Shown here: piece after piece, positions 1-24,399 of the stretch
Position numbering within the stretch: the stretch's first letter is position 1
How the letters are laid out: every line of letters starts with the position of its first letter
DNA from: a virus
Strand: one strand, 5' to 3'
DNA length: 24,399 nucleotides
IMG/VR virus record: IMGVR_UViG_3300006751_000130
Coordinates: 1-24,399 of that record
Program-made: the position numbers and the translations under genes
Notes under the pieces: generated by a model
Database searches by the model: none
The model's input: only the letters and a program-made list of their open reading frames with translations
What the model was told of the DNA's origin: nothing

Positions 1-1731
1 AAACCGATGACCTTGAAAGATGCCCAAGCCCATGCTGCGGAAGCCCTCACGGTTGCGACAATGCGGTCAAGCGATTGGGCTGGTGAATCATACAGCCCAA
101 AGACTTGGAAACCCGCAGCCAAAGAGCCTGTCGGTGGAAATGTCATCGGGCACACGCCAGTCAGAGGTAAAGCGATCTATGCTTCGCATGGCGGCAGTGT
201 AAAAAAGGATCACCAGAACTTTAGCGCAGCCGAACACCTAGCCGCGTCAGAGGTACACCGCGCCTTGGCTTCCCAGTATGATGCTGCTGGGCATCAGGCA
301 ATGAACCTTGGGCAGGACAGCAACATCAATGTGGCTCACGACCACTTCCATGCCAGTGACTACCACACGCAGCAGTCGGAGAGTCACGAACATCTGCACC
401 ATGTAAAGGCGAGAACCCGCCTTCCAGCACACCTTCAACCCAGTATGCGCTCGCCCCACAGTGATAAAGAACTTCGGGATCACGCCGTCAAGATGCAAAC
501 AAAGCGTCTTAGGGCTAACGACAATACAGCAAAATCATTACTCAGCGGCAGCTACGCGCCACATGTTATTGAACACTACAACCTAAACAAACAGGGATTC
601 GACGCCGTGAAGAAGTCAGTAGACGACACTCCCGATCTGGTGAAGGGAGGCAAGGAAGGTTCCAGAGGCGGGCATGTCATCGGTCACACTGGAAGTGGAA
701 AGCCGATCTACGCTTCTCATGCTGGCAACTTCAAGGGGCATACAAAGGGTTGGAGCAGCGAAGATCACGACGACGCGGTGGATGCCCATGCGAAGCAGGC
801 GACCAAGCACTTCATGGCCCGATCAGCGTCTATGAGAGCAGCGGCAACCTCGGACAAAGCGGCTGAAAAGGCATACGACAGAGCCGACGCAGCCCCCGAC
901 CGAAACTCGCGGGACGCATTCCAGCGAGAAGCGGATAAGCATGAAGCGGCTGAGGAGAAGCATCTGGCGACGGGTCAAGACCACCAGAGGGCGCTGGATT
1001 ACCACCACGATGCGATGAATGTCCATGACCAACATGCGGGTGCAGCCTTGCGAGCGGAAGATGCGAAGGCAGGGATCAATCGCTTGACGCATTATGGTTC
1101 TGCCATGAAGCAGCAGTTCTACCAGCCACCAGAGCAGCCGAAGTCTTCAGCGGCAGACGCAGCTCACGGAGCAACCTACACATCGGAGCATGTCAAGAAG
1201 TCAGTCACTGACAATCCCGATCTGGTGAAGGGAGACAAGGAAGGTTCCAGAGGTGGGCATGTCATCGGACACACTGGAAGCGGTCACGCGATCTATGCGC
1301 CGAAGACCCCACACCCATCTACCCACGGTATGCACCGACGCTATGAGCACGAAGATCATGGAGCGAAATCCGCTTCGCAGAACAGTGACACGAAAGAGAA
1401 GCATTGGAAACCGAGCGATCACCTACACGCAGCACAGGCGCACAGTTCTGTCGCCCATCAGCACGACGAAAAGGCGTGGAGTCTTCCACGCGGAAGCAAA
1501 GAACGCGATCACCACCACGCGATGGCTAACTCGCATTTCGGTGCCAAAGACTTCCACGGTCGGGTCGCGGCTGGGCAGAAGCGAAACATGGCCTTGAAGT
1601 ACGCGAAGAAGTCAGCGACTGACAATCCCGATCTGGTGAAGGGTGGTGAAGGCTCCAGTGGGAAATCATTACTCAGCGGCAGCTACGCGCCACATGTTAT
1701 TGGACACTACAACCTAAACAAACAGGGATAA
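1..1731 (+). CDS. His-rich modular repeat protein, probably 5'-truncated by the window edge
   Basis: The frame is open from base 1. The first ATG is at 7 but only six bases precede it, so the true start may lie upstream. The product has no Cys and is very rich in His, Ala, Asp and Lys. Three copies of a module GG(N/H)VIGHTxxxxxIYA lie near residues 43-59, 221-239 and 417-434. Two of them, and a third site near the C terminus, are preceded by a KKS-x-x-D-(N/T)-PDLVKG linker. A second module, KSLLSGSYAPHVI(E/G)HY, occurs twice and ends the protein. Between the modules are long charged, probably helical His/Ala-rich stretches. Similar GHVIGHT...IYAS modules occur, to my recollection, in uncharacterised phage proteins near head genes. 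Function is unknown; a virion or head-associated protein is inferred from the position upstream of portal. Confidence 0.75.
   Translation, partial: KPMTLKDAQAHAAEALTVATMRSSDWAGESYSPKTWKPAAKEPVGGNVIGHTPVRGKAIYASHGGSVKKDHQNFSAAEHLAASEVHRALASQYDAAGHQAMNLGQDSNINVAHDHFHASDYHTQQSESHEHLHHVKARTRLPAHLQPSMRSPHSDKELRDHAVKMQTKRLRANDNTAKSLLSGSYAPHVIEHYNLNKQGFDAVKKSVDDTPDLVKGGKEGSRGGHVIGHTGSGKPIYASHAGNFKGHTKGWSSEDHDDAVDAHAKQATKHFMARSASMRAAATSDKAAEKAYDRADAAPDRNSRDAFQREADKHEAAEEKHLATGQDHQRALDYHHDAMNVHDQHAGAALRAEDAKAGINRLTHYGSAMKQQFYQPPEQPKSSAADAAHGATYTSEHVKKSVTDNPDLVKGDKEGSRGGHVIGHTGSGHAIYAPKTPHPSTHGMHRRYEHEDHGAKSASQNSDTKEKHWKPSDHLHAAQAHSSVAHQHDEKAWSLPRGSKERDHHHAMANSHFGAKDFHGRVAAGQKRNMALKYAKKSATDNPDLVKGGEGSSGKSLLSGSYAPHVIGHYNLNKQG
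532..598 (+). repeat. 67-bp direct repeat, copy 1
   Basis: This segment encodes the KSLLSGSYAPHVIEHY module and is repeated at 1663-1729 with a single mismatch (A at 572, G at 1703). Near identity over 67 bases, including third codon positions, suggests a recent duplication or ongoing gene conversion. Confidence 0.93.
611..713 (+). repeat. 103-bp diverged direct repeat, copy A
   Basis: This aligns without gaps to 1196-1298 with roughly 14 differences, and encodes the KKS...PDLVKGG linker plus the GGHVIGHT module. A third partial copy begins at 1607. Copy A lacks the CTGACAAT octamer that both later copies carry (GACGACACT here against CACTGACAAT). Confidence 0.85.
1196..1298 (+). repeat. 103-bp diverged direct repeat, copy B
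   Basis: Partner of 611-713. It carries the octamer CTGACAAT at 1208-1215. The start of the module recurs a third time at about 1607-1660, with the octamer at 1619-1626. Confidence 0.85.
1663..1729 (+). repeat. 67-bp direct repeat, copy 2
   Basis: Second copy of 532-598. It forms the 3' end of the first gene; its last bases (ACAGGGAT) also lie where the ribosome-binding site of the next gene (ATG 1735) is expected. Confidence 0.93.
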
Positions 1732-1734
1732 GAT

Positions 1735-2463
1735 ATGTCAAAGTTTATAGAAGGGGGCTACGCTCCCCACATCGAAAGTCACTACGGAGAGTCCCTCGCT
1801 AAGTCAGGTGGCCCCTACATCGGAAAACGCGGTGGTAAATGGGCAGACCCACAGCACACTATCCCTTGGGACGAGAAAAAACACGCTGGCAAGCCTGCAC
1901 CACAGGCTAAGAAACATGACGAACATGGTGCAAGGGAACTTACTTTGCACATCGACAACACTGAGCATTTGGCTAACGAAAGCACTTCTAGTCAGAACGA
2001 AACTCAGCGTGGCTCGATCCACAAGAACCTAGCAAAGAAGATTGCTGCTGGGACATACGATCATGCTCAAGCGGGAAAACTGTTTCAGCACCAAGTTGAC
2101 AATGCCTCTAAACATTACAGCAAAGAGTACGGTGCCCCTGCGGGTGGAGGCCACCACTTCGATGCTGCCACGCGCCGCGCAGTTGCCCGTGACATGGCTG
2201 ACAACTTCCACGACGAAGTCAAAGACGGTTACCATGATCACCATGTCTCATCTGGCGTTCACGCGAAACGGGCAAAAGCAGGCGGCGGCATTGCAGCAAT
2301 GGCAGAACGCCACAGCGCGAAGGCCCTGCATGATCGTCTTTCAGGAAAGGGGCGGCCAGTTGGCGGCATGGCGAGCGTAGCCAGCGCAACCAAAACCGCA
2401 GTCAAGAAGTCGCTAATCGAAGGCTACGCACCACGGGTCAACAGCATATATAAGATCGACTAG
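1735..2463 (+). CDS. His-rich phage protein with YAPH modules at both ends
   Basis: 242 residues with no Cys. It starts at ATG 1735, with AGGGAT just upstream and 3 bases after the previous stop. The N terminus SKFIEGGYAPHIESHY and the C terminus KKSLIEGYAPRVNSIY are versions of the module found twice in the preceding gene, so the two genes probably share a partner or processing signal. A GGPYIGKRGGKWADPQHTIPW segment follows at about residues 25-46, a type of tag I associate with uncharacterised phage proteins. The central part (about 68-165; HIDNTEHL..., KNLAKKIAAGTYDHAQAGKL) resembles a helical domain common in hypothetical phage proteins, but I cannot name the family. Probably a virion-associated protein made with the portal operon. 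Confidence 0.8.
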   Translation: MSKFIEGGYAPHIESHYGESLAKSGGPYIGKRGGKWADPQHTIPWDEKKHAGKPAPQAKKHDEHGARELTLHIDNTEHLANESTSSQNETQRGSIHKNLAKKIAAGTYDHAQAGKLFQHQVDNASKHYSKEYGAPAGGGHHFDAATRRAVARDMADNFHDEVKDGYHDHHVSSGVHAKRAKAGGGIAAMAERHSAKALHDRLSGKGRPVGGMASVASATKTAVKKSLIEGYAPRVNSIYKID

Positions 2464-2486
2464 ACTAAAATCGTAAGGAGGCGGCA

Positions 2487-2753
2487 ATGGATAGGGCAGA
2501 TTTATTAGCATTAGTGAATGGGAAAGACCCAGCGACACGCGGAGCTACAAAGTTTCAGCAGGGCAGTGTCAGTATGGTTGATCGTGGCCCTTACGAGCCA
2601 CAGGCTATACCCACGCCTGCGTTAGGAATGGATAGACCACCAGAGGAGGCTGTGACACAGGCTCCGAAGGCGGTAGAAGTTGAACTACCACGATTCGCGA
2701 ATGGACGGCTTATGCACCCAGATTCTAATCTAGTGAATCTGAGTAAGGAGTAG
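2487..2753 (+). CDS. small hypothetical protein upstream of portal
   Basis: 88 residues, Pro-rich and probably largely unstructured. A strong Shine-Dalgarno (TAAGGAGG, about 2474-2481) precedes ATG 2487 at good spacing, so it is very likely translated. The stop is 3 bases from the GTG of the portal gene, which suggests translational coupling. I see no recognisable domain. Confidence 0.78.
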   Translation: MDRADLLALVNGKDPATRGATKFQQGSVSMVDRGPYEPQAIPTPALGMDRPPEEAVTQAPKAVEVELPRFANGRLMHPDSNLVNLSKE

Positions 2754-2756
2754 CTG

Positions 2757-4535
2757 GTGGGATTTCGTGACGACATCAAACAGGTCGTAGGAGCGGGGCA
2801 ACGAGCAGCGTCTGAGGCTGTACGCACTGCTGCGTCAAGCGTCGATGCTTGGGCGACTGAACGCGCTGACAATCGTAGGATGTCTGACATTGATGAGCGT
2901 CTGTACAAGGCGGCAATGAAGGACAAAGGCGCTGTTGAGCGTGAAGACCATTCACCTGAAGGTGAGCCTAAAGCCATTGCGTTTGACCCTTTCGACATTG
3001 TCAGCCTCATGGGCTACCGCGAGAAACCCAGCGAGCTAACATTCACAGCTATCGCAGGTATCGCAAATGGCGTACCTGTGATCACCGATATCTGCAAGGT
3101 GCGGGCAACGCAGGTTCAGACTTTCTGCCAGCGCCCTGAAGACCGACATGCTCCCGGATTTAGAGTTCGGCTAAAAGATCGCAAAGCAGAGGTCACGCCA
3201 GAGGTCGAAGAGCGCTGCCATGAGTTAGAAAAAGTCTTATTGCACTGTGGCTACATAGACGACAACGCTCCACATGATGCTATGTCTTTACGAGACTTTG
3301 CTGGCATGTTCATCAAGGACAGCCTGACCTACGATCAAGCTACCTTTGAGGTCGTACCAGATCGCAAGGGCGATCCAAGCTACTTTACAATAGTTGACCC
3401 AGCTACAATAAGGCTACTTGATCCAGTTTCCTACGAAACGCTGGACGATCCCTTCGCCGTTCAAGTTATGCAAGGCATGATAGTCACAGACTTCACAGGT
3501 CATGAACTAGCCTTCTGCGTCAGAAACCCTCGGAGCGGCATCAAGACTTATGGTTATGGGCAATCTGAAATCGAGACGCTTGTCAGGGAGATCACAGGAT
3601 TTTTGTGGGGTATCGAGTACAACAGGCGCTTTTTCAGTCAAGGCTCAGCGACCAAGGGGATCTTGAACCTGAAGGGCACCATCCCCGATAAGCACATGGC
3701 GGCGTTTCGTCGTCAGTGGTACGCGCAGGTCGCTGGCGTCAGCAACAGTTGGCGAACGCCTATAATGAATGCAGAAGATGTGCAGTGGATCTCAATGCAA
3801 ATGAACTCACGCGACATGGAAATGAGCGCTTGGATGGACTTCCTGATAAAGGTCGTTTGCGCCAGATTCCTTATTGCGCCTGAAGAGGTCAACTTCAGCT
3901 ATGGTAATACAGGGCAGTCTTCAGCTATGGGGAATGTCAGCACAGAAGAGAAACTGCAAGCCTCCAAAGACTTAGGACTTAGGCCGCTTGTACAGTTTTT
4001 CTTTGACTCCCTGAACAAGCACTTTCTATCGCGAATCGATCCTCTATACGAAGCTGTACCCGTCAATCTTGACAGCCGAGGCTCAGACGGTGAGACAGAC
4101 CTTTTACAGAAGCAGCAAAAGCTATTCCTGACGGTCAACGAAGCCCGCGAGCAGGTGGGGCTGGAAGCCCTAGAGGAAAAACTAGGTGATGTCATCTTAG
4201 ATCCGACATGGCTGCAATGGGCACAGAGCCAAGACATGGGAGATGAAGATGACGACGGCTACGAAGGCGAGGAAGATGGCGAATATGACGCTGAAGGTGC
4301 TGATGATTCTGACGACTCTGACGACTCTGACGGTGGCGACGATTCTGACGACGGATCTCTCGGAGAAATAACTGGGCCAGATGGAAAAGTTTATGGATCT
4401 GAAGAGACTGAAGAAGAAGTGCCTGACAATGTTGCAAAGTCAGGTGCTGCTGGGATACAATCAAATCGAGTGTTAGGGCACTCTAACAACAAACTTGTTC
4501 GCTTCTACGAAGTGGATATTGACACAGGAGTATAA
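2757..4535 (+). CDS. phage portal protein
   Basis: 592 residues. It starts at GTG 2757 behind AAGGAG, which is inside the end of the previous gene. The portal forms the dodecameric ring at the head vertex through which DNA is packaged and ejected. Family-like signatures are the YGYGQSEIE segment (about residues 265-273), followed by NRRFFSQGSATKGIL (about 290-304), the SYGNTGQSS loop (about 380-388), the N-L-D-S segment and the TVNEAREQVGL helix near 460-475. After the portal fold comes a long acidic tail (about 494-560) rich in Asp, Ser and Glu with DDSDDSDDSD repeats, then a short tail. The acidic extension is longer than in typical portals. Neighbours (MuF-like, protease, capsid) agree with the assignment. 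Confidence 0.92.
   Translation: MGFRDDIKQVVGAGQRAASEAVRTAASSVDAWATERADNRRMSDIDERLYKAAMKDKGAVEREDHSPEGEPKAIAFDPFDIVSLMGYREKPSELTFTAIAGIANGVPVITDICKVRATQVQTFCQRPEDRHAPGFRVRLKDRKAEVTPEVEERCHELEKVLLHCGYIDDNAPHDAMSLRDFAGMFIKDSLTYDQATFEVVPDRKGDPSYFTIVDPATIRLLDPVSYETLDDPFAVQVMQGMIVTDFTGHELAFCVRNPRSGIKTYGYGQSEIETLVREITGFLWGIEYNRRFFSQGSATKGILNLKGTIPDKHMAAFRRQWYAQVAGVSNSWRTPIMNAEDVQWISMQMNSRDMEMSAWMDFLIKVVCARFLIAPEEVNFSYGNTGQSSAMGNVSTEEKLQASKDLGLRPLVQFFFDSLNKHFLSRIDPLYEAVPVNLDSRGSDGETDLLQKQQKLFLTVNEAREQVGLEALEEKLGDVILDPTWLQWAQSQDMGDEDDDGYEGEEDGEYDAEGADDSDDSDDSDGGDDSDDGSLGEITGPDGKVYGSEETEEEVPDNVAKSGAAGIQSNRVLGHSNNKLVRFYEVDIDTGV
4306..4353 (+). repeat. short imperfect tandem repeat encoding DDS units
   Basis: Reiterated GACGACTCT / GACGATTCT units lie inside the portal gene and encode an Asp-Ser repeat in the acidic tail. 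This is a typical length-variable low-complexity tract. Confidence 0.7.
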
Positions 4536-4536
4536 A

Positions 4537-5058
4537 ATGGGCGCACCTTCATTATTAGCAGAGCAGGCGAGTAGCGTTTTACCAATGCTAAACGCCTTCG
4601 CCAACTGGTTTCGTTCACACGCTGACGGTGTCGCCACCGCTGACAATGGCAGCGCCATTTTAGCTAGTGTCTGCACTCTCACCATCGACAACACGGGAGG
4701 TTTCGTTACAGGCGGCGGCGGGTTCGAGCAAGTAAGCGCGGCGTCAGCTACGGCTTTAGCTGATACCATCACCTTCACAGCAACAAGCGGTTTGAACGCT
4801 ATTGCTGCTGTTGTGGTAGACATCAGCGGCGCACCTGCTCTAAAGGCTGTTTGGGGATCAGAAGCCGCCACGGGTTCCGAAGTAACACCTACTGACGCTG
4901 AGATTACAACAGCTCTCGGTGATAACCTCTGGTGTCGCGTAGCAGATGTCAATGTCGAGATTACAGGTGCTACTACTGGTACTTTCACTGTTGACAATAC
5001 TGCCCGCAACTCGGTATTACTGTACCAAGGCGTATTGACGACATCTGACGCCATCTAA
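4537..5058 (+). CDS. hypothetical beta-rich virion-type protein
   Basis: 173 residues from ATG 4537, with CAGGAG at about 4525-4530 upstream. An in-frame ATG at 4495 also exists but lies inside the portal gene without a good ribosome site, so I chose 4537. The first ~30 residues are hydrophobic/amphipathic (SLLAEQASSVLPMLNAFANW); the rest is Ala, Thr, Val and Gly rich and looks beta-stranded, as in small decoration or virion proteins. The TAA stop shares its last A with the next ATG (TAATG). No family recognised. Confidence 0.75.
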   Translation: MGAPSLLAEQASSVLPMLNAFANWFRSHADGVATADNGSAILASVCTLTIDNTGGFVTGGGGFEQVSAASATALADTITFTATSGLNAIAAVVVDISGAPALKAVWGSEAATGSEVTPTDAEITTALGDNLWCRVADVNVEITGATTGTFTVDNTARNSVLLYQGVLTTSDAI

Positions 5059-5369
5059 TGGCGTTAGGATTGTCAGCACCTGACGGTGAGATCGCGGGAA
5101 ATCCAGAGGAGGTTTTACGCGCACTCATCGCCGTCGCCGTCGCAGATGGTGCTGACAGAGATCAGTGGATTGACCGTTTAGTCAAAGCGACAGGCGCTAC
5201 GAAGCGTTCGGTGGCTGTGAACGGTCAACCACGGTTCAAGGTACTACATGAAGCATTAGCGGAATACTTGAACATATATGACAAGGCCACAACATCCATG
5301 AACGGGGAGATCGAAAGGATACTAGCTGACGCAGTTAGTAAAGCCTCAGCGACTCACCTGCTAGGGTGA
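5058..5369 (+). CDS. small hypothetical protein
   Basis: 103 residues. The start overlaps the previous stop by one base (TAATG), typical of translational coupling. It is mostly helical by eye (EEVLRALIAVAVADGADRD, then a Lys/Arg-containing middle and a helical C terminus). Residues 3-6 (LGLS) are encoded by ATTGTCAG at 5069-5076, the repeated octamer of this window. Function not recognised. Confidence 0.75.
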   Translation: MALGLSAPDGEIAGNPEEVLRALIAVAVADGADRDQWIDRLVKATGATKRSVAVNGQPRFKVLHEALAEYLNIYDKATTSMNGEIERILADAVSKASATHLLG

Positions 5370-5373
5370 ACTA

Positions 5374-5667: not shown

Positions 5668-5673
5668 CTAGCG

Positions 5674-6693
5674 ATGTCTCTGCTTTTCGACCCATCAGTG
5701 ATACGGGAGATCGTCAAGGTGATCGAAGAGCATCATACCGCCGTTGCGGCGGCTCTTTACGGGGAAAGCTCAGTAACGCCCGAAGCGTGGAAAATGGCGA
5801 TAGGCTTGGATCTTGTCGATCCCACAAATCCAGCAGTCAGGGTGTCAGAGCAGCTACATCATTTTGGCGCTTTCATGGCTCATCTCGACCATGCGAGCCA
5901 GTATACACGCTACGGTACAACCATTGACGACTTCATGGCCGAGATCAAACGAAACCCAGTGCCACGGACTGAAGTAGAGGTTTTAGCCTCTGAAGCAGCC
6001 AACCAGCGGGCAGCACAGTACATCGTTGGCTTAGGCAACAAGGTAGGTGCAAAGATAGGTAGTAGACTGATCGAAGCCGACAAAGAGCTAGATCACCGCC
6101 TGCGCTCAGCCATCAAAGATGTCGTTTCAGCTAGGTTTGGTGACGAACAAGCAGCTAAGCGTATGCGCGAACGCGGGATCAAGGCTGGTAAGGAAGAGAC
6201 TTTTTTCGACGACTCATTCAGAAGCACGACGAAAAGGGTTGCCAGCGACATCGGACATGCGACTAACGACTGGGGTAGAGACTTGAAACGCATCGCACAG
6301 ACCGAGACTCAGCGAGCGCTGAATGACGGTCTGAAAGCATCTTGGGATGAGCAAGAGAAGGAGAAGGCTAAAGCGGATAAGCGGCCTCTCGACAAGATTA
6401 TAGCCTTCAAGTTGCCTCGCCCCGACGCTTGTAAGCATTGTCTAAGGTTACATTCTGACAATGCAGGTAATCCAAAACTGTACTATCTTGATGATATGGA
6501 AAGCAATGGGAACAATATAGGGAGACGAGCAGCAGAGTGGAAGGCCACTATAGACCCCGTCCACCCGTTCTGCGCTTGCCAGCTAGTTCGACTACCGAAG
6601 TTTATCGAGCTACCTAAAGAGTGGCGTAGTGGATTGTCAGCACCAGCGGTTGTTGGTGAAGGTGGCAACCTCATAGACGACGCTGGAGAATAG
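5674..6693 (+). CDS. MuF-like minor head / head morphogenesis protein
   Basis: 339 residues from ATG 5674. MuF/SPP1 gp7-type proteins bind the portal, are present in few copies per head and are often linked to cargo delivered with DNA. The family signature is visible: RIAQTETQRALNDG (about residues 206-219) followed by the metal-binding-type Cys pairs DACKHC (C253, C256) and HPFCAC (H297, C300, C302). The N-terminal ~200 residues are helical. It lies three genes downstream of portal, as expected. The gene ends 2 bases before the next ATG. ATTGTCAG occurs at 6633-6640 near its 3' end. Confidence 0.87.
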   Translation: MSLLFDPSVIREIVKVIEEHHTAVAAALYGESSVTPEAWKMAIGLDLVDPTNPAVRVSEQLHHFGAFMAHLDHASQYTRYGTTIDDFMAEIKRNPVPRTEVEVLASEAANQRAAQYIVGLGNKVGAKIGSRLIEADKELDHRLRSAIKDVVSARFGDEQAAKRMRERGIKAGKEETFFDDSFRSTTKRVASDIGHATNDWGRDLKRIAQTETQRALNDGLKASWDEQEKEKAKADKRPLDKIIAFKLPRPDACKHCLRLHSDNAGNPKLYYLDDMESNGNNIGRRAAEWKATIDPVHPFCACQLVRLPKFIELPKEWRSGLSAPAVVGEGGNLIDDAGE

Positions 6694-9261: not shown

Positions 9262-9280
9262 CTACAGGAGACTGACAATG
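9262..9280 (+). promoter_or_regulatory. ribosome-binding site fused to the repeated octamer
   Basis: AGGAG (9267-9271 region) is followed directly by CTGACAAT (9272-9279), whose last two bases are the AT of the start ATG at 9278. The same arrangement occurs at 22443-22456. Confidence 0.7.
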
Positions 9281-9610
9281 GCTGAAGATTACGAACATGA
9301 CACTAGATACCTACTGCGGAGAGAATACGCCTCAAAGCCTTTTTATCGTGACGCTTGCCATATAGTATTCGACACTGAATCCATTGACGGGTACTACCTG
9401 ACAATGCTGAATCCGAAGGTAGCCGACACGGGTTTCGTCAGTCATGTCGCAAAAGCGATGAGCCTTCCCCAGACGCCCCATGAAAGTGTCGATGATGGTA
9501 ACACTAACTATCGTATTATAAAAGACCCCGTAACTCATGGAGTTATCACACACTTTGGCCTAGCAGTCGAAAGCATCAACGGCGTTGTCGCCATACCTGT
9601 AGAGGGCTAA
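9278..9610 (+). CDS. small hypothetical protein
   Basis: 110 residues with a clear AGGAG site. It has mixed alpha/beta character and I recognise no motif. It sits between the two very large genes, ending 1 base before the ATG of the 2779-residue protein, so it may be a chaperone or accessory of one of them, but this rests only on position. It holds a second octamer copy at 9398-9405 (frame CTG ACA ATG, Leu-Thr-Met). Confidence 0.75.
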   Translation: MAEDYEHDTRYLLRREYASKPFYRDACHIVFDTESIDGYYLTMLNPKVADTGFVSHVAKAMSLPQTPHESVDDGNTNYRIIKDPVTHGVITHFGLAVESINGVVAIPVEG

Positions 9611-15600: not shown

Positions 15601-17951
15601 GTTCAGGCGACGGCCCAGACGGTAAGCGTCAGATGGTGCTGTTTGGTAATGGTATACTAGATTCCTGCCGCACGATGGAGGCCAAACTGCGACAGATGGG
15701 CTACCGCGATGTGAACGAGTGTATCAAAGGCTCCATCATGTTCGACAAGGACGACCCTGCAACACAGGGCGATCCACCTAGTCCGATTGGTAAGTATTTT
15801 GTAACCTATATTGGCTCTACCCATACAGGTAACCGTGAGTTGAACAGTGCAATCTTTCAGAAGACTAAGGACGCGCTAGATCGCGATACCACGACTAGCC
15901 TGTTCGTACATAAGACCGCACAGGCCGCCCCTTCATCATCATACCGAGATCCTGAAGGTAACAAGTACTCAGTCGATTGGCAGGCTTACGGTGGTGACAT
16001 CGGTCAGAACTACCTACCTAGCGGCTGTGAGGGCATCAAGATGTCGCAATGGACAGCCGATCAGCGCGAAATCATAAACGCTCAGTTCGGCATCACGCCA
16101 CCAGAATCATTTGTATCTGTACCAGCAGGGACGGGGGCAGAGCGTGAGTTGTATTTCTACGGTAAGAAGTTCACAGCGAAGGAGCGCCGCGAGCTAGAGG
16201 CCCAGTTCGGTAAGAACCCACCATTGATAACTAGTGGTGACTTACTCCGAGCAGTTACGCTAGTTGGTGACCCTAACAAACTAGAGGGTGCAGAAAAGCG
16301 CAAAGCAGTTGACAAGATTCGCAAGCTGAAGCGGGCGTACACTGAAATAGCGATGGCGAATGCGGCTGAGGAGCCGCCCTTGACGCAGCGCCAGACATCG
16401 GTATTCAACAACTGCGAGATGATCGTCGCCTCTGACGCAGCGCAAGTTGGCCTCAACTGGGGTAACTCTTCAGAGATGGTGATGTATGATTCACTGGGTT
16501 CACCGATGGCAGAAGCCCAGCGGATAACGCGCTGCGCTAGAATGCTCTCTGCCGCTGTCGAGGAGAAGCTAATCGGTAAGCGGAAGATGATTCAAAAAAC
16601 TCGACCTAAGCGCGATCTGGCGACAGGTGAAATCGAGATGGTCAACGGCAAGCCTGCGCGTGAAGGTGTTACGAAGCTGACAACAGAGGGTACCCAGTTG
16701 GTAGACACCCTACGCAATCAGATGGAAGCGACAGGATTGTCAGAAGAGGCAAAGCAGGATCTGGACAAAAAGCTCCGAGCAGCATTGTCAGATTCTAGCA
16801 ATCGTGAGCCTGTAATGGTGCAAGCTACCGACGACTTAGGACGCCCAGTATTCCACAGCGATGGGCCTTTTAGCGAGCTTCGCCGAAACGAATCGGAGAT
16901 CTTTGGTGTAACCGCCAGAGAGTACGACAGCGGAAGTGTTGCAGGGTTGAAAATAGGCGCGGCTATTTCATCAGGCAGTGAGATCCACGGCGGCAAGCGA
17001 GTCAGCTTGCCTCAAGCACTCGCGTCCATCAAGACCACCTGCTTCGACGCAGCTAACGCATTAGAATCGACAGGTAGGCCAAAGGAGGCGGCAAAGGTCA
17101 GGGCAGTCGGTATGCGGTGTCAGGCGGCAGCGGCTATGGGAGGGACTGCGGCGTCTACCCTATTGTCAGATCTGAGAAAAGAAGTCATACCTAGAACGAA
17201 TGAGTATTATGTTGAGTTCGATGACGCGAAGATGAATGTGCCTGATCCCCTCGCAGGTACTTATAGTGGCGAGGTCACGACTGAGGCGGTGGAAAACAAG
17301 GTGCGTCAGTGGATCGACAAGCAGCCTGAAACTGTCAAATCAGCTATCATGTCGGCAGGCTTTACGAAGTCTGAAGATGCTGAGAGCGCTACGCATGACC
17401 CTGCTGCTGTTTACTTGGCGATTCGAGCGCAAGAAATACTCACTTGGATCGAAGACAACAGAGGTTCAATAGGCGAGGACATGCGTAAACAGGCTGGTGG
17501 TGGGATCATTACTGAAAATGAGATCAACAACCGCTTGATAGACACCTTGAACCCTACCGATAGAGCTATACTGAAGACTAAAAAGTATCTGGTCAATGTC
17601 AGAAAGCTGTCGGCAGGTGGACATGTAGGCCAGAAAACCGAGTACACCTACAGTGATGACGGTAAGAAGACTAAAGCGCGTGTGTATACAGGCTTTGAGC
17701 AAGAGTACCCCGTTAGCTCAGAGCGGCGAACCAGAGCTACTCAACGCGCCAGAATGCGAAGCATGGAAGACATTTTTACTGCCGTGAACTCAGGGGTTAC
17801 CTTCCGACCAGAAGGTGGTTTTGAAGAGGTTGGCGCTAAGGACATCGCAACATTGTCAGTTATACCTAAAGCTATCGCCAAGGCACTCACCGTTCTGAAG
17901 CGGGCGGCGCTGGTATTCGATCTAGACAAACTTGGAGGCAAGCTATGGTAA
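9612..17951 (+). CDS. giant multidomain virion-type protein: zinc metallopeptidase motif plus split SNF2/SF2 helicase
   Basis: 2779 residues. The N-terminal tag-like part (FERG...HKYWRRQRVV..., KWKYYYDN near 60-67) is followed by a gluzincin-like site: HEMAH at 271-275 and a candidate third ligand E351 in YERWAEGF. The helicase has SHQKQLLQK (Q-like), Walker A MGTGKT (G1275-T1279), DEVH (1403-1406), LLTGTP (about 1432-1437), a motif IV-like strand QMVLFGNG (near 2007), motif V SDAAQVGLNW (2274-2283) and motif VI QRITRCAR (2303-2310). Lobes 1 and 2 are separated by about 500 extra residues. The C-terminal ~470 residues and the region 450-1200 are unassigned. MuF-linked injected proteins and DarB-type anti-restriction proteins are the nearest known concepts. 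Likely cytoplasmic action on host DNA or proteins after delivery is inference. The next gene starts 7 bases before its stop. Confidence 0.85.
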   Translation: MSKKLGLSASLIDAAGFNDINDLFLPAETVLAKGGGFERGPKAGHKYWRRQRVVTSGKLKWKYYYDNEKDRAEWAEDRAKILKKKKKSLTRLERRRHKAAVETHGEGYSKEKFSADNPDIGAAKKALKDLTNEFVDEILNYKNPPKLLISDAAREMYMEAVASHYGSDGDPADPHGKKLHALRMVEHAYSALPASFTKFFDGDIKSILVGVAADSDIKRKKAAAYARYAGNGQTVIVTALDRMSMNGGGGGEDGNMYGMKGGAFGVECLVHEMAHAFHNRMGAYRSQDFDELQQRGWTGASWDDWLNFCNDECRKHKKIDHDGTKRGKKGKAGEIAVTGYGQENSYERWAEGFTACLLYPHQMAQKCPKQYDWFRENVFGAEVLHPRITDPDAVEKAKAAIADATTAEERKEARQALSKVEGLDEVGPKDPRFQWWNNSQPSEFQQALIADKEANPLPPFGGDFHRLDPPDEDAVGHQKNGRSTADRFYEMNHKGRTVYFRYGKDGSSKKFNNWEPHKEGGKATAPRLSEIKECYDERGNPVDPRLAYLHLVQDEMEDGQIVGMVKVKGKEYPVTTTDILEQMSGEADNLTNERVMKLIGAEGKRNFAKMLRAFSSPKMNDDMRKLQAAYTAFNAAADDSPEKAKSKALIDRLEAVLDSKDWDTNITSGKGGMPQTITMTPHEVSHREFKQRSGTFAYDRIAMAGQATLDELKKTRIGTKKHTALLDKLRKEQGGVAIENRRDPRSGRFVRGNVKLDSRGKPIFDRIKYVNDNPDGSQTIIEVKRDPSTGIMRIANPMWAELLTPNGEAIRSAADIEKYMRIAAAEQRRTWVSLRTDRQRVRTKSGKWKMAKAGDTDHHLHLEVEFDGRGQPRIIGDYWKSKLNKTDPRLDHLIKDDPLFSQFRDNARAVIEGEAIRMKPATQRPSYKDRSIRVGERTVLSVTGAEQRSKAAKDKEIVATLHRIIQGKLAGELPPKPRWDQMPEQFEELPSPAGGMTGLQKKEIDRELRSNVPNKKTRARIQLLKRSGDLPAWYTHDSLQKAWFAKHFTPALAHWKETAESERQKAYETQYIFRGDIKGGASGQLFYRSESMVNNDLRPPEAAVVPEGLTDNVLAYMHHEVDPRSGISVTKEVRLVPPTDGSYSLDSLAGLAGVTAKWSAPDLLGRRKLVSATVSVDQFHKLRSAIGGLSLTDSVNQALAERTEMLRVAARARTDESHVMELDEIDPKSLNEAWNVKLNPTLPNGKPFTLGSHQKQLLQKTIDNNGRVLAAHYMGTGKTVSALAAAQMMLRRPYRADAGDRVGADRQRFLEENPWDTTRLHPDNPKRVLVVAPLSTVEQWRQSASDFDDGCQVVGSGSTHIPIEAFESMEDGARSEIVVVGPEYFTLHADKLKACGFDGLIIDEVHMGIKNEDAERNRKVREWNDDMKMLMLLTGTPMTTSPSDFVEYIRLLSNGKVFGDMTKAKFLDEYCDYSPIPHELGETGKGPRVMIKPEKMAELSAILSQYMDVAGSKDVRGKTMPAIRIEENKHATMQGVQANLYNFYLAALGDNADLPALTMEELEKLSDEGVRKKAMAARAIVNCVGYRPGDSQLNIQIEVEDPKTGNVSKKDLETPNIGALMNKGRGKSTGKWRMISELEGGPQAALMYDTFCSEVFGLPYHMLAGKPIGYGIPVKGVKDPMKLPVTKAQFEEAKRRMRAAGWPKTIDNPDAGPLGIAFRGHGVNLLDQLRDQVLAGDTFAAKKLEALKEEIQTAMDIQRAYRVELAGLSGSSSIDPEGVLKAIAMQYGITLDRAQALLEVNPTPTVVQSSVRLTHSGQEIEMSASDSWISDPRGSLHLLYHPDDWDAEAKQPKSRGGFAQVKSGDTVQVKASVLKKLGIKPPPKPKAPQKSATDAVKAMYKEELDKWKAVTAAWQPPKLVYRGDEPTDKGVPLTIMSGVRAGETIFAPEESINKLVSSLFDVGERRRTDRPKADLAMVHQNAKADELQSHIERFHDGSGDGPDGKRQMVLFGNGILDSCRTMEAKLRQMGYRDVNECIKGSIMFDKDDPATQGDPPSPIGKYFVTYIGSTHTGNRELNSAIFQKTKDALDRDTTTSLFVHKTAQAAPSSSYRDPEGNKYSVDWQAYGGDIGQNYLPSGCEGIKMSQWTADQREIINAQFGITPPESFVSVPAGTGAERELYFYGKKFTAKERRELEAQFGKNPPLITSGDLLRAVTLVGDPNKLEGAEKRKAVDKIRKLKRAYTEIAMANAAEEPPLTQRQTSVFNNCEMIVASDAAQVGLNWGNSSEMVMYDSLGSPMAEAQRITRCARMLSAAVEEKLIGKRKMIQKTRPKRDLATGEIEMVNGKPAREGVTKLTTEGTQLVDTLRNQMEATGLSEEAKQDLDKKLRAALSDSSNREPVMVQATDDLGRPVFHSDGPFSELRRNESEIFGVTAREYDSGSVAGLKIGAAISSGSEIHGGKRVSLPQALASIKTTCFDAANALESTGRPKEAAKVRAVGMRCQAAAAMGGTAASTLLSDLRKEVIPRTNEYYVEFDDAKMNVPDPLAGTYSGEVTTEAVENKVRQWIDKQPETVKSAIMSAGFTKSEDAESATHDPAAVYLAIRAQEILTWIEDNRGSIGEDMRKQAGGGIITENEINNRLIDTLNPTDRAILKTKKYLVNVRKLSAGGHVGQKTEYTYSDDGKKTKARVYTGFEQEYPVSSERRTRATQRARMRSMEDIFTAVNSGVTFRPEGGFEEVGAKDIATLSVIPKAIAKALTVLKRAALVFDLDKLGGKLW
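14786..14809. repeat. perfect 9-bp inverted repeat inside the giant gene
   Basis: ACTTGATCA - GCTTCG - TGATCAAGT, with a 6-base loop, could form an RNA hairpin. It lies within coding sequence (DQLRDQV) and lacks a proper T-tract, so it is probably incidental. Confidence 0.5.
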
Positions 17952-18310
17952 AAGTAGAACAATCAGGTGCAGGTAGGGCAAAGCCCGCTGGCAATCATCG
18001 ACTGAACATCAACCCTGCTGACTACGATCTGTCACAGTTCCTATGCGCTTATCCCGGATCTCAGTACAACAAAGGCTTAGAAAACATCAGTGCCTTCGAT
18101 AGATTGTCAGTTGATGGTGACAGTGCTCAGCTCGAATACCTAGTCAACTGGATCGAGCCGCATACTACAGTTGCGTGGATAATGGAACATCACGGCGCTA
18201 ATGGTGTAAAGCGTGTTTTGCGCGGCATAGCCAAAGCGGCGGTGAAGTTCGGTACGGCCATGAAGCCGAGGGTTTATCACACAGCAGAGTGTCTAGGGCT
18301 AGTTGAGTAA
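17945..18310 (+). CDS. hypothetical protein
   Basis: 121 residues. Its start ATG lies inside the last codons of the giant gene (TATGGTAA), and its stop overlaps the next start by one base, so it is part of a translationally coupled chain. The sequence has Trp, His and Cys scattered without a recognisable motif; the middle (VNWIEPHTTVAWIMEHHGANGV followed by a basic helix) looks compactly folded. No function assigned. Confidence 0.75.
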   Translation: MVKVEQSGAGRAKPAGNHRLNINPADYDLSQFLCAYPGSQYNKGLENISAFDRLSVDGDSAQLEYLVNWIEPHTTVAWIMEHHGANGVKRVLRGIAKAAVKFGTAMKPRVYHTAECLGLVE

Positions 18311-18962: not shown

Positions 18963-19871
18963 TTGAGCGACACTTTCAAGATATACATCCCGTTGTCCAC
19001 ATGGGAGAAGTCAGGTGAGGAGAACCCCCTTAGAATAGGTGGGATTGTCAGCACTGACGGGTTGGATAGACAGGGTGAGCGCGTAGTCCAAGATGGCTTG
19101 GACTTCGCGCCTTTCTTGAGACATGGGTGGTACAACGACAACCACGGTCAGAAAACTACAGATGTCCTAGGGTACCCAACCTCTGTCGAGCGCGTGAAAA
19201 AAGGTCAGAAGCTCCCCGACGGCTCGAAGAGTCAGCATAACGGGTGGTGGGCAGAGGGCTATCTTCTCGACACGGACGAAGGCCGTAAAGTCTATTCGTT
19301 AGCACAGTCATTAGGTAAGTCAGGCGGCGACAGGCGTTTGGGCTTCAGCATCGAAGGGAAGGTGCTGGCTAGAGATCGTCGCGAGCATTCAAAGATTGTC
19401 AGGGCAGAGGTTAGGAATGTTGCAGTCACGCATTGTCCTGTCAATACCGACACCCACCTAAATGCTTTAGCGAAAGCTCTTATGGCAGGTCACGCTATCG
19501 AGGCTCCGACAGGTTCAGAAAGTGGTGATGGATTTGCCCTTCGCACCGAGTCAATGGACAAACGAAAGAAAAAAGATGAGGACGATGTCGAAAAAGTTGA
19601 GTTGGTAGATATATCTGCTGACAATCTTGACGACGACGATTCAGATGGAGGTTTGGCCAAGGCTACAGCCGCTACCGCGCCCACCATCGACTCGCTACAG
19701 TACCTTTCACGGTGGGCAGATTCCGTCGCGGATTACTGTGAAAGTAAAAGAAAATCAAATGTTTCGCTGACAAAAGCGGAAGCATCTATTATTGTCAGTT
19801 ACAGATATCCAAACTTGTCAACGAAAGAGGTTGATGACATTGTTGCAGAAGCAACTGGAGGCATTCAATGA
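18963..19871 (+). CDS. prohead (capsid maturation) serine protease
   Basis: 302 residues from TTG 18963, chosen because GGAG (18953-18956) lies 6 bases upstream; a longer frame from TTG 18933 would run through the terminator stem. Prohead proteases cleave scaffold and capsid N termini during maturation. The fold is suggested by GGIVSTDGLDRQGERV, the His-containing segment RHGWYNDNHG (H54, H61) and the LGFSIEG strand with candidate nucleophile S129, followed by VRNVAVTHCPVN. The C-terminal ~130 residues are acidic/basic and Ser-rich. Residues 168-199 (ALAKALMAG ... GFALRTESMD) match residues 34-64 of the capsid protein. The stop overlaps the next start (ATGA). Confidence 0.85.
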   Translation: MSDTFKIYIPLSTWEKSGEENPLRIGGIVSTDGLDRQGERVVQDGLDFAPFLRHGWYNDNHGQKTTDVLGYPTSVERVKKGQKLPDGSKSQHNGWWAEGYLLDTDEGRKVYSLAQSLGKSGGDRRLGFSIEGKVLARDRREHSKIVRAEVRNVAVTHCPVNTDTHLNALAKALMAGHAIEAPTGSESGDGFALRTESMDKRKKKDEDDVEKVELVDISADNLDDDDSDGGLAKATAATAPTIDSLQYLSRWADSVADYCESKRKSNVSLTKAEASIIVSYRYPNLSTKEVDDIVAEATGGIQ

Positions 19872-20926
19872 AACCAACAGAAGGCGGGCTAACCCCAGCA
19901 GGGAAGACCCTAATGATGATGAAATCTCGACCAGCGGGACTTACTTACAAAGGCTACCAAAAGATGTGCAAGAGCGCAGGCTGTGAAGGTGTCTCTGACG
20001 AAGTGTTCAAAGCCTTACCAATCGACGAGGGTATGGACATTGCTGGTCTACAAGGTCTGCTATCTAAAGGGTCTGAAGAGGAGGAAGCCTCAGAGGAAGC
20101 CCCAGAGGAAGAGGAGGCTGAAGAGTCTTCAGACGATCAACCCGAAGAGGAAGCTGAGGCTTCCGATGAAGATGGAGAACAGATGGATATGTCACGCAAA
20201 GGTGCGAGAAAATCAATCAGCGCAGGCGACCTCTTGAAGAGCATCGCAGCATACGATGCAACAGAAGATGCCCTTCGTGAATCAGGCACTGGCCGTGAGT
20301 CGTTCCTGACGACTAAGCTAGATTCTGGTACACTCTCGAAATCAGAGCGTGTCGAGCTAGGCCAAATCTGGTCAGGTGCTACCGAAGATGTGGTAGAGAC
20401 ACCTGAAGACCTCCACAAGTCACTCTACGATGTCATGACAGATGACGAAGACGCAGGCGCTCTTGTAGACGCCAGCGACTTTTTGAAGTCACTTGTACAA
20501 GGCATGGATCAGCGTATGCAAGGAGTCGCTCAAGATGTCTCTCGCGAAGGGCGGGCAACTAGAGAGTTGCTGAAAGCGCAAGGCAGCTTGGTCAAGAGCC
20601 TTGCAGTCGTCGTCGCCGAGCAAGACGAAATAATCAAGAGCCTTGCAGGGCGCGTGGAAGAGGTAGAGGCAGCACCCGCGCCTCGCCGTTCCGTATCCAG
20701 TGAAAGGTCACAAGTTCGCGGTCGTCCATTATCGAAATCCACAGTAGGTGACACACCTGACAATCTGGGAAGCGATGCTATCAAAAAGGGACTTCGGTCA
20801 CTTATGATGCACGCCTCTGAGGAGTCTGACAATACCGCTATGGATAAGATCATGCACGCGACAGCGATGTTTGAGCAAACAGGAAACATTCCTTCTAACA
20901 TTCTCGCCGCCATAAGAGCGGTCTAA
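19868..20926 (+). CDS. probable scaffold / prohead core protein
   Basis: 352 residues, starting within the stop of the protease gene. After a short ordered N terminus (YKGYQKMCKSAGCEGVSDEVF) comes a very acidic Glu/Ser/Ala stretch (about 68-104), then a helical part with a likely coiled coil (about 215-268, MDQRMQGVAQDVSREGRATRE...) and a basic, helical C terminus. Location between the protease and major capsid genes, acidity and coiled coil are the usual profile of an assembly scaffold that is degraded on maturation. There is no enzyme motif. The two octamers at 20757 and 20826 are near its 3' end. Confidence 0.75.
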   Translation: MKPTEGGLTPAGKTLMMMKSRPAGLTYKGYQKMCKSAGCEGVSDEVFKALPIDEGMDIAGLQGLLSKGSEEEEASEEAPEEEEAEESSDDQPEEEAEASDEDGEQMDMSRKGARKSISAGDLLKSIAAYDATEDALRESGTGRESFLTTKLDSGTLSKSERVELGQIWSGATEDVVETPEDLHKSLYDVMTDDEDAGALVDASDFLKSLVQGMDQRMQGVAQDVSREGRATRELLKAQGSLVKSLAVVVAEQDEIIKSLAGRVEEVEAAPAPRRSVSSERSQVRGRPLSKSTVGDTPDNLGSDAIKKGLRSLMMHASEESDNTAMDKIMHATAMFEQTGNIPSNILAAIRAV

Positions 20927-20947: not shown

Positions 20948-22429
20948 ATGTCTGGTGAGTTCGTATCATGGCAAGACTATGGCAACGGTATCAATCCCAA
21001 TCAGGGAGGCGTTATCGGCGGCCAAGGATCTGCTGACGATGTGTTAGCGCTAAATAAAGCGCTAACCGCTGGCAGTGACATCAATAATCCCGGAATGGCC
21101 GCTGGTGAAGGCTTCCCACTTCGTGTGGAAAGCCTCGACAGCACCCTTTACAATGTGACCTATAGGGCACAGGACATCAAGTTCTGGAAATCATTGTCAA
21201 AGACTGCCGCCTACAACACTATCGAAGAGTTCAATCGTCTTCGCAGCTACGGTGCTGGTAACGCTGTCTTCATGTCTGAAGGCGCACTACCTACTGAGGA
21301 CGATTCGACCTACGAACGCGCCTACACACGGGTGAAGTTCATGGGTACCGTTCGTCGCGTTACTCATGTCATGAGCCTGTTGAAAGCCGCACACGGTGAC
21401 GCTGTCGCCCGTGAGACTGTCAACGGTACTCTATTCCTTCTTCGCCAGCTAGAGCGTACATTGTTCGATGGTGACGAAGATTTGATGGGCGTACAGTTCA
21501 ACGGTCTTGAAAAAACACTTGTTGACGCATGGGGTTCAACTGCAATGGGTGACGGTCAGCTCTCAGGTTACGAGACAGACTATGTCATCGACATGCGTGG
21601 TCAGCCTCTAACCGAAGATCATATCGCTGATATGACTGAGCGCTTGATCGCTGAGCCTAACTATGGTGCGCCTTCAGACCTCTGGTTGCCAACTGGCCCA
21701 GTCAAGGATCTGTCTAAGATCATGTACCCGAAAGAGCGCTATGATCTACCTGCACCTCGCGACGGGATGGCTGGTATCAGCATCAAGGGTGTAACTACAC
21801 CTTTCGGTGACATCAGCCTGAACTCAGACATCTTTATCCCTGACAGTGGCCTTGCTACTGCGGCGGGTGTCGGTGGCTCTGAGCGTCCTTCAGCTAACAC
21901 TATCACTGTGCCACCTGCGGCAGGTGCTTGGGGTGGATCTGGATCAACTTACTTCGGCGCATCTGACGCTGGCGATTACTTCTACCAAGTTGTAGCTTGT
22001 AACTCGAAGGGTAAGGCTGTTCCTGTGGACTCTGCTTCAGTAACTGTTGCATCTGGTGACGCTGTTACTTTCACCATCGCTGACGGTGGTACGACTACTG
22101 AGTACTACGAGATTTATCGTACAGAGGCTGACGCCGCTGTCGCAACATCTCGTCTTATCATGAAGGTTGCACGCTCTGGCGCGACTCAAGTTGTGACAGA
22201 CCTCAACAGGTTCCTTCCAAATACTTCACGCGGTTACATGCTAACGCAATCTGCTGATGTACTTTGTTGGAAGCAATTGGCCCCATTCAGTAAGATTCCA
22301 TTAGCTACTATTGACTCTAGTATCCGCTGGATGCAAGTTTTATATGGTGCCCTCCAAATCATGGCTCCTCAGAAGAACGGCATGTTTATAAATGTAGGCA
22401 AGCTAAGCACTGGTGCTTACGGATCGTGA
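20948..22429 (+). CDS. major capsid protein (HK97-fold type) with Ig/fibronectin-like insert
   Basis: 493 residues with a strong site (CAGGAG) before ATG 20948. The N-terminal segment VLALNKALTAG (32-42) and GFPLRVESLDSTLYNVTY (55-72), then DIKFWKSL, YNTIEEFNRL and EGALPTEDDSTYERAYTRVKFMGTVRRVTH (split over about 75-140), match the large-phage capsid family I know from similar sequences. A beta-rich insert (about 310-425; GDYFYQVVACNSKGKAVP, TEYYEIYRTE) looks like a fibronectin-III/Ig domain exposed on the capsid surface. The gene contains no copy of the window's octamer, the longest octamer-free gene after the first kilobase. Confidence 0.9.
   Translation: MSGEFVSWQDYGNGINPNQGGVIGGQGSADDVLALNKALTAGSDINNPGMAAGEGFPLRVESLDSTLYNVTYRAQDIKFWKSLSKTAAYNTIEEFNRLRSYGAGNAVFMSEGALPTEDDSTYERAYTRVKFMGTVRRVTHVMSLLKAAHGDAVARETVNGTLFLLRQLERTLFDGDEDLMGVQFNGLEKTLVDAWGSTAMGDGQLSGYETDYVIDMRGQPLTEDHIADMTERLIAEPNYGAPSDLWLPTGPVKDLSKIMYPKERYDLPAPRDGMAGISIKGVTTPFGDISLNSDIFIPDSGLATAAGVGGSERPSANTITVPPAAGAWGGSGSTYFGASDAGDYFYQVVACNSKGKAVPVDSASVTVASGDAVTFTIADGGTTTEYYEIYRTEADAAVATSRLIMKVARSGATQVVTDLNRFLPNTSRGYMLTQSADVLCWKQLAPFSKIPLATIDSSIRWMQVLYGALQIMAPQKNGMFINVGKLSTGAYGS
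21044..21065. repeat. perfect 8-bp inverted repeat in the capsid gene
   Basis: TTAGCGCT - AAATAA - AGCGCTAA lies over the codons for the LALNKAL stretch. It could fold in RNA or be chance; there is no T-tract. Confidence 0.45.
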
Positions 22430-22442
22430 TAAATAGCTAACG

Positions 22443-22456
22443 GGAGGCTGACAATG
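22443..22456 (+). promoter_or_regulatory. ribosome-binding site fused to the repeated octamer
   Basis: GGAGG followed by CTGACAAT (22448-22455), whose final AT is part of the start ATG at 22454. It is the second such fusion in the window. Confidence 0.7.
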
Positions 22457-22918
22457 GGCAGCAGTAAATCTGATATCGTAGTTATCAACCGTCGGCGACA
22501 TGCGCGTGGTACGCGCCATGCCGTAAACGGACGAGTATACGCAGTCAATGAAGTTACTGGTGCCCTCCATCTCACCGACGGTGAGATTGTCAGCGCCACC
22601 GCTGGCTGCTGCCAAGAAGACGCAGAGCGCCTTCTACAAGGCAGCAACTACAGGCTTCAGGTCGAAAGACCTGAACCGCCCGCACCAGCGGCGCGTTCAC
22701 AGGCTCAACCAGAGGTCGCACCCGTTGATCTCGAATCTGTGAGCGCCGCCGCCCCCCTTGATGTGCTGGATCAATCTGTAAGTAAGATCACAGCCGCTTT
22801 GAAAACAGGTGAGTATGACAACCACCTGTCCACTTTACTTGACGCTGAAAACGGTGGTAAAACCCGTAAGTCAGCAGTTTTAGCCATTCAAGAACGCATA
22901 ACCTTACTGGAGGACTGA
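22454..22918 (+). CDS. hypothetical head-region protein
   Basis: 154 residues with a strong GGGAGG site. The N-terminal ~75 residues are compact (VINRRRHARGTRHAVNGRVYAV..., GEIVSATAGCCQEDAERLLQG), then a Pro/Ala linker and a helical C-terminal segment (LSTLLDAENGGKTRKSAVLA). The tail (LLxAExxGKxRKxxxxxI) resembles the C-terminal motif in various hypothetical phage proteins encoded just after the capsid gene; I cannot name a family. A head-completion role is possible by position. Confidence 0.75.
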   Translation: MGSSKSDIVVINRRRHARGTRHAVNGRVYAVNEVTGALHLTDGEIVSATAGCCQEDAERLLQGSNYRLQVERPEPPAPAARSQAQPEVAPVDLESVSAAAPLDVLDQSVSKITAALKTGEYDNHLSTLLDAENGGKTRKSAVLAIQERITLLED

Positions 22919-23785: not shown

Positions 23786-23794
23786 GGGGTACCA

Positions 23795-24399
23795 GTGGCA
23801 ACTGTGCAGATCACAGGTACTATCCAAGATGCTACAGGTACAGGGGTTTCAGATGCGTTAGTCCGTTTAGAGCCAGCACCTGCTAGTGTGCAGTCGGCTG
23901 AAGCTATCGGCGGCGTCGGGCTGATCCTAGACCCTGTCGAGCTAGTGACTGATGTCGCAGGTGCGTTTAGCGCAACAGCTATTCAAGGGTTCCGTTATCG
24001 ACTGACAATCCCATCTATTGGCTTTGATCGTGACTTTGTAGCACCTGCCGTTGCCACTGTTCGATTTGACCTCTTAGGTCTAATACCATCAATAGAAAGT
24101 GTGCCAAACGCAGAAGACGCTTCTGCTGTAACAAATGTTTTCTTACTGGTAAAGGCTTTCCCGATAGCCACAGTAATGGAGAGGTATGCAGAAATAGAGG
24201 TTGATAGGTCTGCCACACAGTCAGGCCCGTGGACGACAGTCAAAACGATCAGCCTACTGGCAGGGCATCAGTTCTATGAGTATACCGACACGCCAACTGA
24301 CAATAATGTTTACTATCGAGTGCGGTACACAGAGGCGGCGCTAGGCGACGCGAGTGCATACTCAGCGGTATTGTCAGCTAGTCATGAAGAAGAAGAAGC
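23795..24399 (+). CDS. Ig-like / fibronectin-like virion protein, 3'-truncated by the window edge
   Basis: The frame is open from GTG 23795, behind AGGGGG (23784-23789 region), to the last base, giving 201 residues so far. The N-terminal part (ATVQITGTIQDATGTGVSDA, then VTDVAGAFSATAIQGFRYRL) looks like a carboxypeptidase-regulatory-like beta-sandwich; the second part (YAEIEVDRSATQSGPWTTV, YEYTDTPTDNNVYYRVRY) looks like a fibronectin type III domain. Such domains are common in phage tail, fibre and decoration proteins. The last codons are a Glu run. Octamers lie at 24002, 24297 and 24370. Confidence 0.75.
   Translation, partial: MATVQITGTIQDATGTGVSDALVRLEPAPASVQSAEAIGGVGLILDPVELVTDVAGAFSATAIQGFRYRLTIPSIGFDRDFVAPAVATVRFDLLGLIPSIESVPNAEDASAVTNVFLLVKAFPIATVMERYAEIEVDRSATQSGPWTTVKTISLLAGHQFYEYTDTPTDNNVYYRVRYTEAALGDASAYSAVLSASHEEEE

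Follow-up and report, generated by a model that had tools for sequence, protein, structure and literature searches.

What maintains a single short word in many copies across a phage genome, and what reads it, is the question raised by the 24,399-nt stretch of viral DNA analysed here (IMG/VR record IMGVR_UViG_3300006751_000130, positions 1 to 24,399; hereafter the window). The octamer CTGACAAT occurs in 39 exact copies, 21 on the plus strand and 18 on the minus strand (seen as ATTGTCAG), the first at position 1208 and the last at 24370-24377. Base composition predicts 0.70 copies, corresponding to a 56-fold excess, and the recount agreed in number and strand with an earlier note that had given about 39 copies, roughly fifty-fold more than the less than one expected. 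We tentatively read the octamer as the local form of a recognition word that runs through the genomes of a group of uncultured myophages, remote kin of SPO1, and whose reader is most likely the phage's DnaG-type zinc-ribbon primase with its own DnaB-like helicase, a reading to which we give rather less than an even chance.

The octamer is by far the commonest 8-mer of the window, the next unrelated one reaching 10 copies, and an order-3 Markov model predicts 1.98 copies (Poisson p ~1e-35). As single-mismatch variants were nearly absent (0-4 copies each), the exact octamer was taken as the unit, with a preference for C or G as the base directly after it. T is missing from this position because the phage avoids AATT (1 seen vs 59 expected), and a never-T flank was therefore not counted as belonging to the word. 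L009 and L020, two IMG/VR contigs nearly identical to the window, carry the octamer at equal density (26 and 20 copies) and lengthen the window in both directions, giving 31.4 kb and 50 sites in all.

Such a count might simply follow from base composition, codon usage or repeated peptides, and Asp-Asn dipeptides are indeed over-represented in the window proteins (34 vs 18 expected). However, synonymous codons were permuted inside each gene, keeping the proteins and the codon counts, and this returned 4.5 +/- 1.5 copies with a maximum of 11 in 2000 shuffles, while codon-order shuffling returned 0.95. Moreover, the word is used on both strands and in five reading contexts, namely 16 Asp-Asn, 12 Leu-Ser, 6 Ile-Val, 3 Leu-Thr and 2 start junctions, as the earlier note had listed them, and its sites are kept as DNA words among phages sharing the same dialect. 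Codon permutation and site conservation together refute a by-product, to which we leave a negligible probability.

Relatives were collected through their capsid and portal proteins, enriched words were scored against the order-3 Markov model and the dialect logos were refined by expectation maximisation. Many of these phages have their own word, spread over the whole genome and both strands. In the clade with at least 61% capsid identity the words are gCTGACAAT in the window, CTGACAA in L021, L030 and L053, GACGACAATC in the 63.5-kb G002 (where ACGACAAT has 92 copies vs 4.9 expected), G[GA]CGACAATC in L014, GRCGACAATTG in G022 and GGAGACAAW in G010 (GAGACAAA, 56 copies vs 0.6 expected). GACAA is common to all of them and is near-invariant in the window, G002, G022, L014 and G010, with flanks that vary. 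In the clade with 44-47% capsid identity we found TTCCAGAAA in G025 (112 vs 2.8 expected) and G027 (105 vs 2.8), TCCAGAC in G024 and G028, TTCCGCA in G037, CGGATAC in G026 and G031, and TCCGGA in G030 (319 vs 58 expected). A clear word was absent from the GACAA-clade members G003, L057, L059 and G034, the short contigs L012 and L019 showed none, and several other members of the 44-47% clade had none; G003 is wordless although its capsid protein is 63% identical to that of the window.

The enrichment had been described as running through the structural genes. The enrichment itself stood and the restriction did not, as in the long contigs the word is spread throughout, in structural genes and elsewhere. 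Density was about 1 per 0.5-0.6 kb in most strong dialects and 0.5-1 kb across word-bearing relatives. CTGACAA is found in contigs of differing composition, 52% GC (guanine plus cytosine) in the window and 64% in L021, L030 and L053; the word tracks phage kinship and not base composition. The cultured relatives SPO1, LysYB1, vB_EalM-132 and Bacteroides phage SJC03 have no such word, unlike the window phage. A cultured distant relative, Thermus phage Lalka27b (L040), has 107 copies of CCTCGAGG in 49 kb, and this sequence is absent from 50 kb of phage P23-45, which has the same host species.

These dialects bear on the idea that the word belongs to the host, as an uptake sequence or similar towards which the phage drifted or which it exploits. 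Uptake words of Neisseria and Haemophilus look alike, with 9-12 letters, about 1 copy per kb, dialects and inverted pairs, and the phage words share with the uptake sequences of Neisseriaceae and Pasteurellaceae the non-palindromic form, the density of about 1 per kb, the use of both strands, some inverted pairs and a conserved core with dialects in related lineages. Uptake sequences serve bacterial competence, whereas the word studied here belongs to a tailed phage, which injects its DNA, no host genome is known to contain it, and relatives as close as G003 lack any word. Since the dialects follow kinship across 52% and 64% GC and the window phage and G002 differ in word while sharing part of the restriction-like words that they avoid, a host-set word is disfavoured, and we consider it very improbable.

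Selection acts on the DNA word itself. Within dialects, pairs of phages with 66-69% amino acid identity were compared: 62% of the sites were in place between G025 and G027, against 7% of other 8-mers in the same alignments, and 42% between G024 and G028, against 10% of other words of that length, so that sites are kept 4-9 times more often. Together with the codon- and protein-preserving shuffles this bears out the selection on the word proposed earlier. Across dialects nearly all sites have relocated with the density retained, only 2 of 31 window sites coinciding with a G002 site, which nevertheless exceeds the chance value of 0.03. The expectation of conservation at aligned sites thus held within dialects and failed in distant relatives, which lack CTGACAAT at these places; this failure refutes nothing, because they carry a changed word at the same density elsewhere. 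At the codons of window sites amino acid identity was 0.34 to G002 and 0.31 to the wordless G003, vs averages of 0.50 and 0.44 for the same genes, indicating that the word is either bought at the expense of protein sequence or placed at positions where the proteins accept change. Word orientation was independent of gene strand in 14 phages, which favours reading as DNA over reading as RNA. Of the DNA or RNA word first suggested, the DNA part therefore stands, and a signal at the RNA level was rejected for want of a gene-strand bias.

The arrangement of the sites was then evaluated. The GACAA clade was short of same-strand pairs within 200 bp (33 vs 75 expected, z -4.7) but not of opposite-strand pairs (86 vs 75 expected), with a mean same-strand gap of 0.9-1.4 kb. 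Each strand thus seems to call for a set of sites to itself, suggesting strand-specific reading; as other dialects break this spacing rule, the suggestion is limited to the window's clade. Divergent pairs were mildly depleted. Strict helical phasing of convergent pairs was dropped, since a wider set does not keep it. A switch of replication strand, sought by orientation walks, was weak (p 0.01-0.05 in G024, G028, G023 and G029), and the GACAA clade showed none. Orientation minima lie at homologous places in G024 (L126-L131; about 60.6 kb, p 0.02) and G028 (L143-L148; about 34.5 kb, p 0.04), and this shift could be a replication landmark.

The window phage, taken with L009 and L020, avoids words resembling restriction sites (seen/expected: AATT 1/59, TTAA 0/54, ACGT 0/83, CCAGG 0/60, GGACC 0/22), and so does G002 (L032-L035; AATT 0/139, CTAG 0/102, TTAA 0/54, GGACC 0/53). 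Avoidance this heavy points to cutting pressure on these phages, and the overlap of the two sets in AATT, TTAA, GGACC and CCGG suggests similar hosts.

Cutting pressure is what would give value to a Chi-like signal, an oriented word that halts a RecBCD/AddAB-type nuclease, starts recombination and saves cut phage DNA. Chi sites are short, oriented, over-represented and lineage-specific, as is the phage word, which also lies in genes on both strands with strand-specific spacing. Chi is set by the host nuclease, yet the window phage and G002, with seemingly similar hosts, differ in word, and one word serves phages of both 52% and 64% GC; a Chi-like role is thus unlikely. Methylation was weighed in the same way: a DNA methyltransferase of phage or host would modify the word, whose abundance would then reflect a need for methylated sites, an idea already put forward for HIP1. 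HIP1 (GCGATCGC) of cyanobacteria is likewise an octamer scattered in genes, genome-wide and at a similar density, and an over-represented octamer linked to methyltransferases is in itself a precedent (PMC4390886). Some of the giant head-region proteins have helicase domains typical of anti-restriction proteins. Unlike CTGACAAT, which is not its own reverse complement, is viral and differs between related phages, HIP1 is palindromic, belongs to cellular genomes and is associated with GATC/CGATCG methyltransferases (PMC4390886). The proteins scanned, a subset from incomplete genomes, yielded no methyltransferase domain, the giant helicase of the GACAA clade also occurs in G003, which has no word, and did not turn up in TCCAGA-type contigs, and strand-specific spacing is left unexplained; methylation appears as improbable as a Chi-like role.

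The reader is likely to be encoded by the phage itself, and of the functions listed in the earlier note a replication/helicase-type or another DNA-binding protein fits best, host uptake and host Chi being disfavoured. A factor of this kind would read the word as DNA and co-evolve with its sites, which would give dialects built on a common GACAA core with changing flanks within the clade of the window, and on different cores in more distant phages. A primase is our best single guess. On the template for lagging-strand synthesis the octamer reads 5'-ATTGTCAG-3', and its core 5'-TTGTC-3' is a T7-type (G/T)2GTC start site for an ACAA primer, which makes the T7 gp4 / DnaG primase recognition sites a close parallel. 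The dialect letters flank this pentamer on both sides, mainly 3', where primases take extra specificity. With a primase that needs 8-9 letters, each strand would have to offer a site roughly once per kilobase. ACAA is among the primers that T7 primase makes from (G/T)2GTC sites, and sequence 3' of the pentamer contributes to its site choice (PMC12839067). Flank-dependent choice is known for both the T7 and M. tuberculosis primases, and only some of the 177 pentamers in the T7 lagging-strand region are used (PMC12839067); a genome-wide enriched site of 8-9 letters such as the phage word is not described there.

Twelve contigs encode a zinc-ribbon Toprim primase, including G002 and G022, whose primase matched solved DnaG in a hidden Markov model search (E 7e-22) and adjoins a DnaB-like helicase. 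The (G/T)2GTC template core is present in the window, G002, G022, L014 and G010, and is absent from the TCCAGA, TCCGGA and CGGATAC dialects. The zinc ribbon of the primase is regularly spaced in eight clearly word-bearing phages and in the weakly worded G036, and has two-residue insertions in G034 and G042, two of the three primase-bearing phages without a clear word; the cases are few and were looked for post hoc, and the association is suggestive. Used as a query for more relatives, the primase returned its own contig and two very weak matches only. Gene presence and absence over 24 incomplete contigs gave no family found in all word-bearing contigs and absent from all wordless ones. A DarB-like giant helicase was rejected as reader, being present in the wordless G003 and not found in TCCAGA-type contigs, and a gene family at G025 44200-44772 was discarded as a word marker since it looks like a spurious antisense frame.

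Several observations weigh against the primase. No primase was seen on the window contig, which is itself a fragment, and we know of no primase that needs 8-9 letters. G030 has a strong palindromic word, TCCGGA, and no primase of this DnaG-type family was found on its 110-kb contig; conversely, primases are present in G034, G042 and G043, all without a clear word. TCCAGAC phages are instead short of opposite-strand pairs, and CGGATAC phages of close pairs of every kind, with even spacing regardless of strand. Finally, convergent pairs within 100 bp are in excess in the GACAA clade (33 vs 19 expected), which priming does not predict.

The close inverted pairs, the palindrome of G030 and the differing spacing rules better fit a dimeric DNA-binding protein. 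A phage-encoded protein of this type, probably dimeric and binding double-stranded DNA for compaction, protection, packaging or genome-wide regulation, would generate dialects as its DNA-reading surface evolves. It is favoured by the palindromic or near-palindromic dialects TCCGGA and TTCCAGAA, by the convergent (inverted-repeat) pairs of the GACAA clade, whose excess is concentrated below about 27 bp outer distance, and by the strand-blind even spacing in CGGATAC phages. The repulsion of same-strand but not opposite-strand neighbours in the window's clade would be unexpected of an orientation-blind protein, G025 and G027 have few copies of the palindromic centres TTCCGGAA and TTCTAGAA compared with TTCCAGAA, and no gene family tracked word presence across the contigs, incomplete as they are. 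We regard such a protein as the main rival, though on the whole a doubtful candidate. The existence of the word system we take as demonstrated and a reader encoded by the phage as likely; the inverted pairs, the G030 palindrome, the differing spacing rules, the primase unseen in the window and the incomplete contigs are the reasons for which we place the primase itself below one half.

A primase of extended specificity would preferentially replicate DNA bearing the right word. More generally, we infer that a phage-encoded reader, such a primase or another DNA-binding protein, acting only on DNA with the right dialect would provide a self-recognition code, reader and hundreds of sites changing together, comparable to the dialects of uptake sequences but viral; we consider this possible, at a little short of an even chance.

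By its sequence, the window contig belongs to an uncultured myophage that is a remote relative of SPO1, the kinship being visible in the portal, head protease, scaffold and capsid genes (Table 1). SPO1 and LysYB1 (Spounavirinae, Herelleviridae) have homologous portal and capsid proteins, and the proteins of SPO1-type phages are 33-35% (capsid) and 36-38% (portal) identical to those of the window phage; as amino acid identity is below 40%, assignment to the family Herelleviridae is uncertain. Positions 1-8000 had no DNA match among annotated phages by blast. The search for a host, a genome scan and about 1,160 genomes in three host groups, returned only distant relatives and no closely related prophage, and the three closest of those returned (L050-L052) have no strong word. 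One of them, L050 (CP070713.1 2890007-2911437), is a capsid-gene relative within a 3.5-Mb Myxococcales chromosome assembly, which suggests a prophage or an assembly join in an otherwise mostly lytic-looking group.

Other genes of the window were also inspected. A head-region protein of 850 aa (6696-9248) has an inorganic pyrophosphatase-like domain (PF18823) and a middle part that appears sigma-factor-like by eye alone, and is perhaps an injected polyvalent protein. Among the head genes, a protein of 2779 aa (9612-17951) has SNF2-type helicase domains and is possibly an anti-restriction protein delivered with the DNA; wordless relatives have one too. The protein at 7-1731 has repeated DNPDLVKG..EGSRGGHVIGHTGSG units, and a 67-bp stretch at 532-598 recurs at 1663-1729 with 98.5% identity.

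Table 1. Word sites and marker genes in the window.
Feature	Position	Strand	Match
CTGACAAT site	1208..1215	+	exact
CTGACAAT site	1619..1626	+	exact
CTGACAAT site	2866..2873	+	exact
CTGACAAT site	2997..3004	-	exact
CTGACAAT site	4423..4430	+	exact
CTGACAAT site	4640..4647	+	exact
CTGACAAT site	5069..5076	-	exact
CTGACAAT site	6455..6462	+	exact
CTGACAAT site	6633..6640	-	exact
CTGACAAT site	7174..7181	+	exact
CTGACAAT site	7580..7587	-	exact
CTGACAAT site	8319..8326	-	exact
CTGACAAT site	8542..8549	+	exact
CTGACAAT site, overlaps ATG of gene at 9278	9272..9279	+	exact
CTGACAAT site	9398..9405	+	exact
CTGACAAT site	9629..9636	-	exact
CTGACAAT site	9955..9962	+	exact
CTGACAAT site	11192..11199	-	exact
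CTGACAAT site	11371..11378	+	exact
CTGACAAT site	12940..12947	+	exact
CTGACAAT site	13576..13583	+	exact
CTGACAAT site	14912..14919	-	exact
CTGACAAT site	15408..15415	+	exact
CTGACAAT site	16736..16743	-	exact
CTGACAAT site	16784..16791	-	exact
CTGACAAT site	17162..17169	-	exact
CTGACAAT site	17852..17859	-	exact
CTGACAAT site	18103..18110	-	exact
CTGACAAT site	19044..19051	-	exact
CTGACAAT site	19395..19402	-	exact
CTGACAAT site	19618..19625	+	exact
CTGACAAT site	19791..19798	-	exact
CTGACAAT site	20757..20764	+	exact
CTGACAAT site	20826..20833	+	exact
CTGACAAT site, overlaps ATG of gene at 22454	22448..22455	+	exact
CTGACAAT site	22586..22593	-	exact
CTGACAAT site	24002..24009	+	exact
CTGACAAT site	24297..24304	+	exact
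CTGACAAT site	24370..24377	-	exact
Portal protein gene, for placing the phage next to its relatives	2757..4535	+	
Major capsid protein gene, query for relatives and their dialects	20948..22429	+	

Genome-wide words with dialects are known in bacteria, as uptake sequences, HIP1 and Chi, and our literature searches on over-represented phage words found no report of genome-wide dialect words in phages. A genome-wide word read by a protein of the phage would amount to a genome-wide viral signal of a new kind, and contigs of uncultured phages could be sorted simply by their dialect. Should the phage encode the reader, any change in it must be matched at roughly one to three hundred sites per genome, making these phages a natural experiment on the co-evolution of a DNA-reading protein and its sites. 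If the reader is the primase, the word would reveal an extended primase specificity and a means by which a virus can favour the copying of its own DNA.

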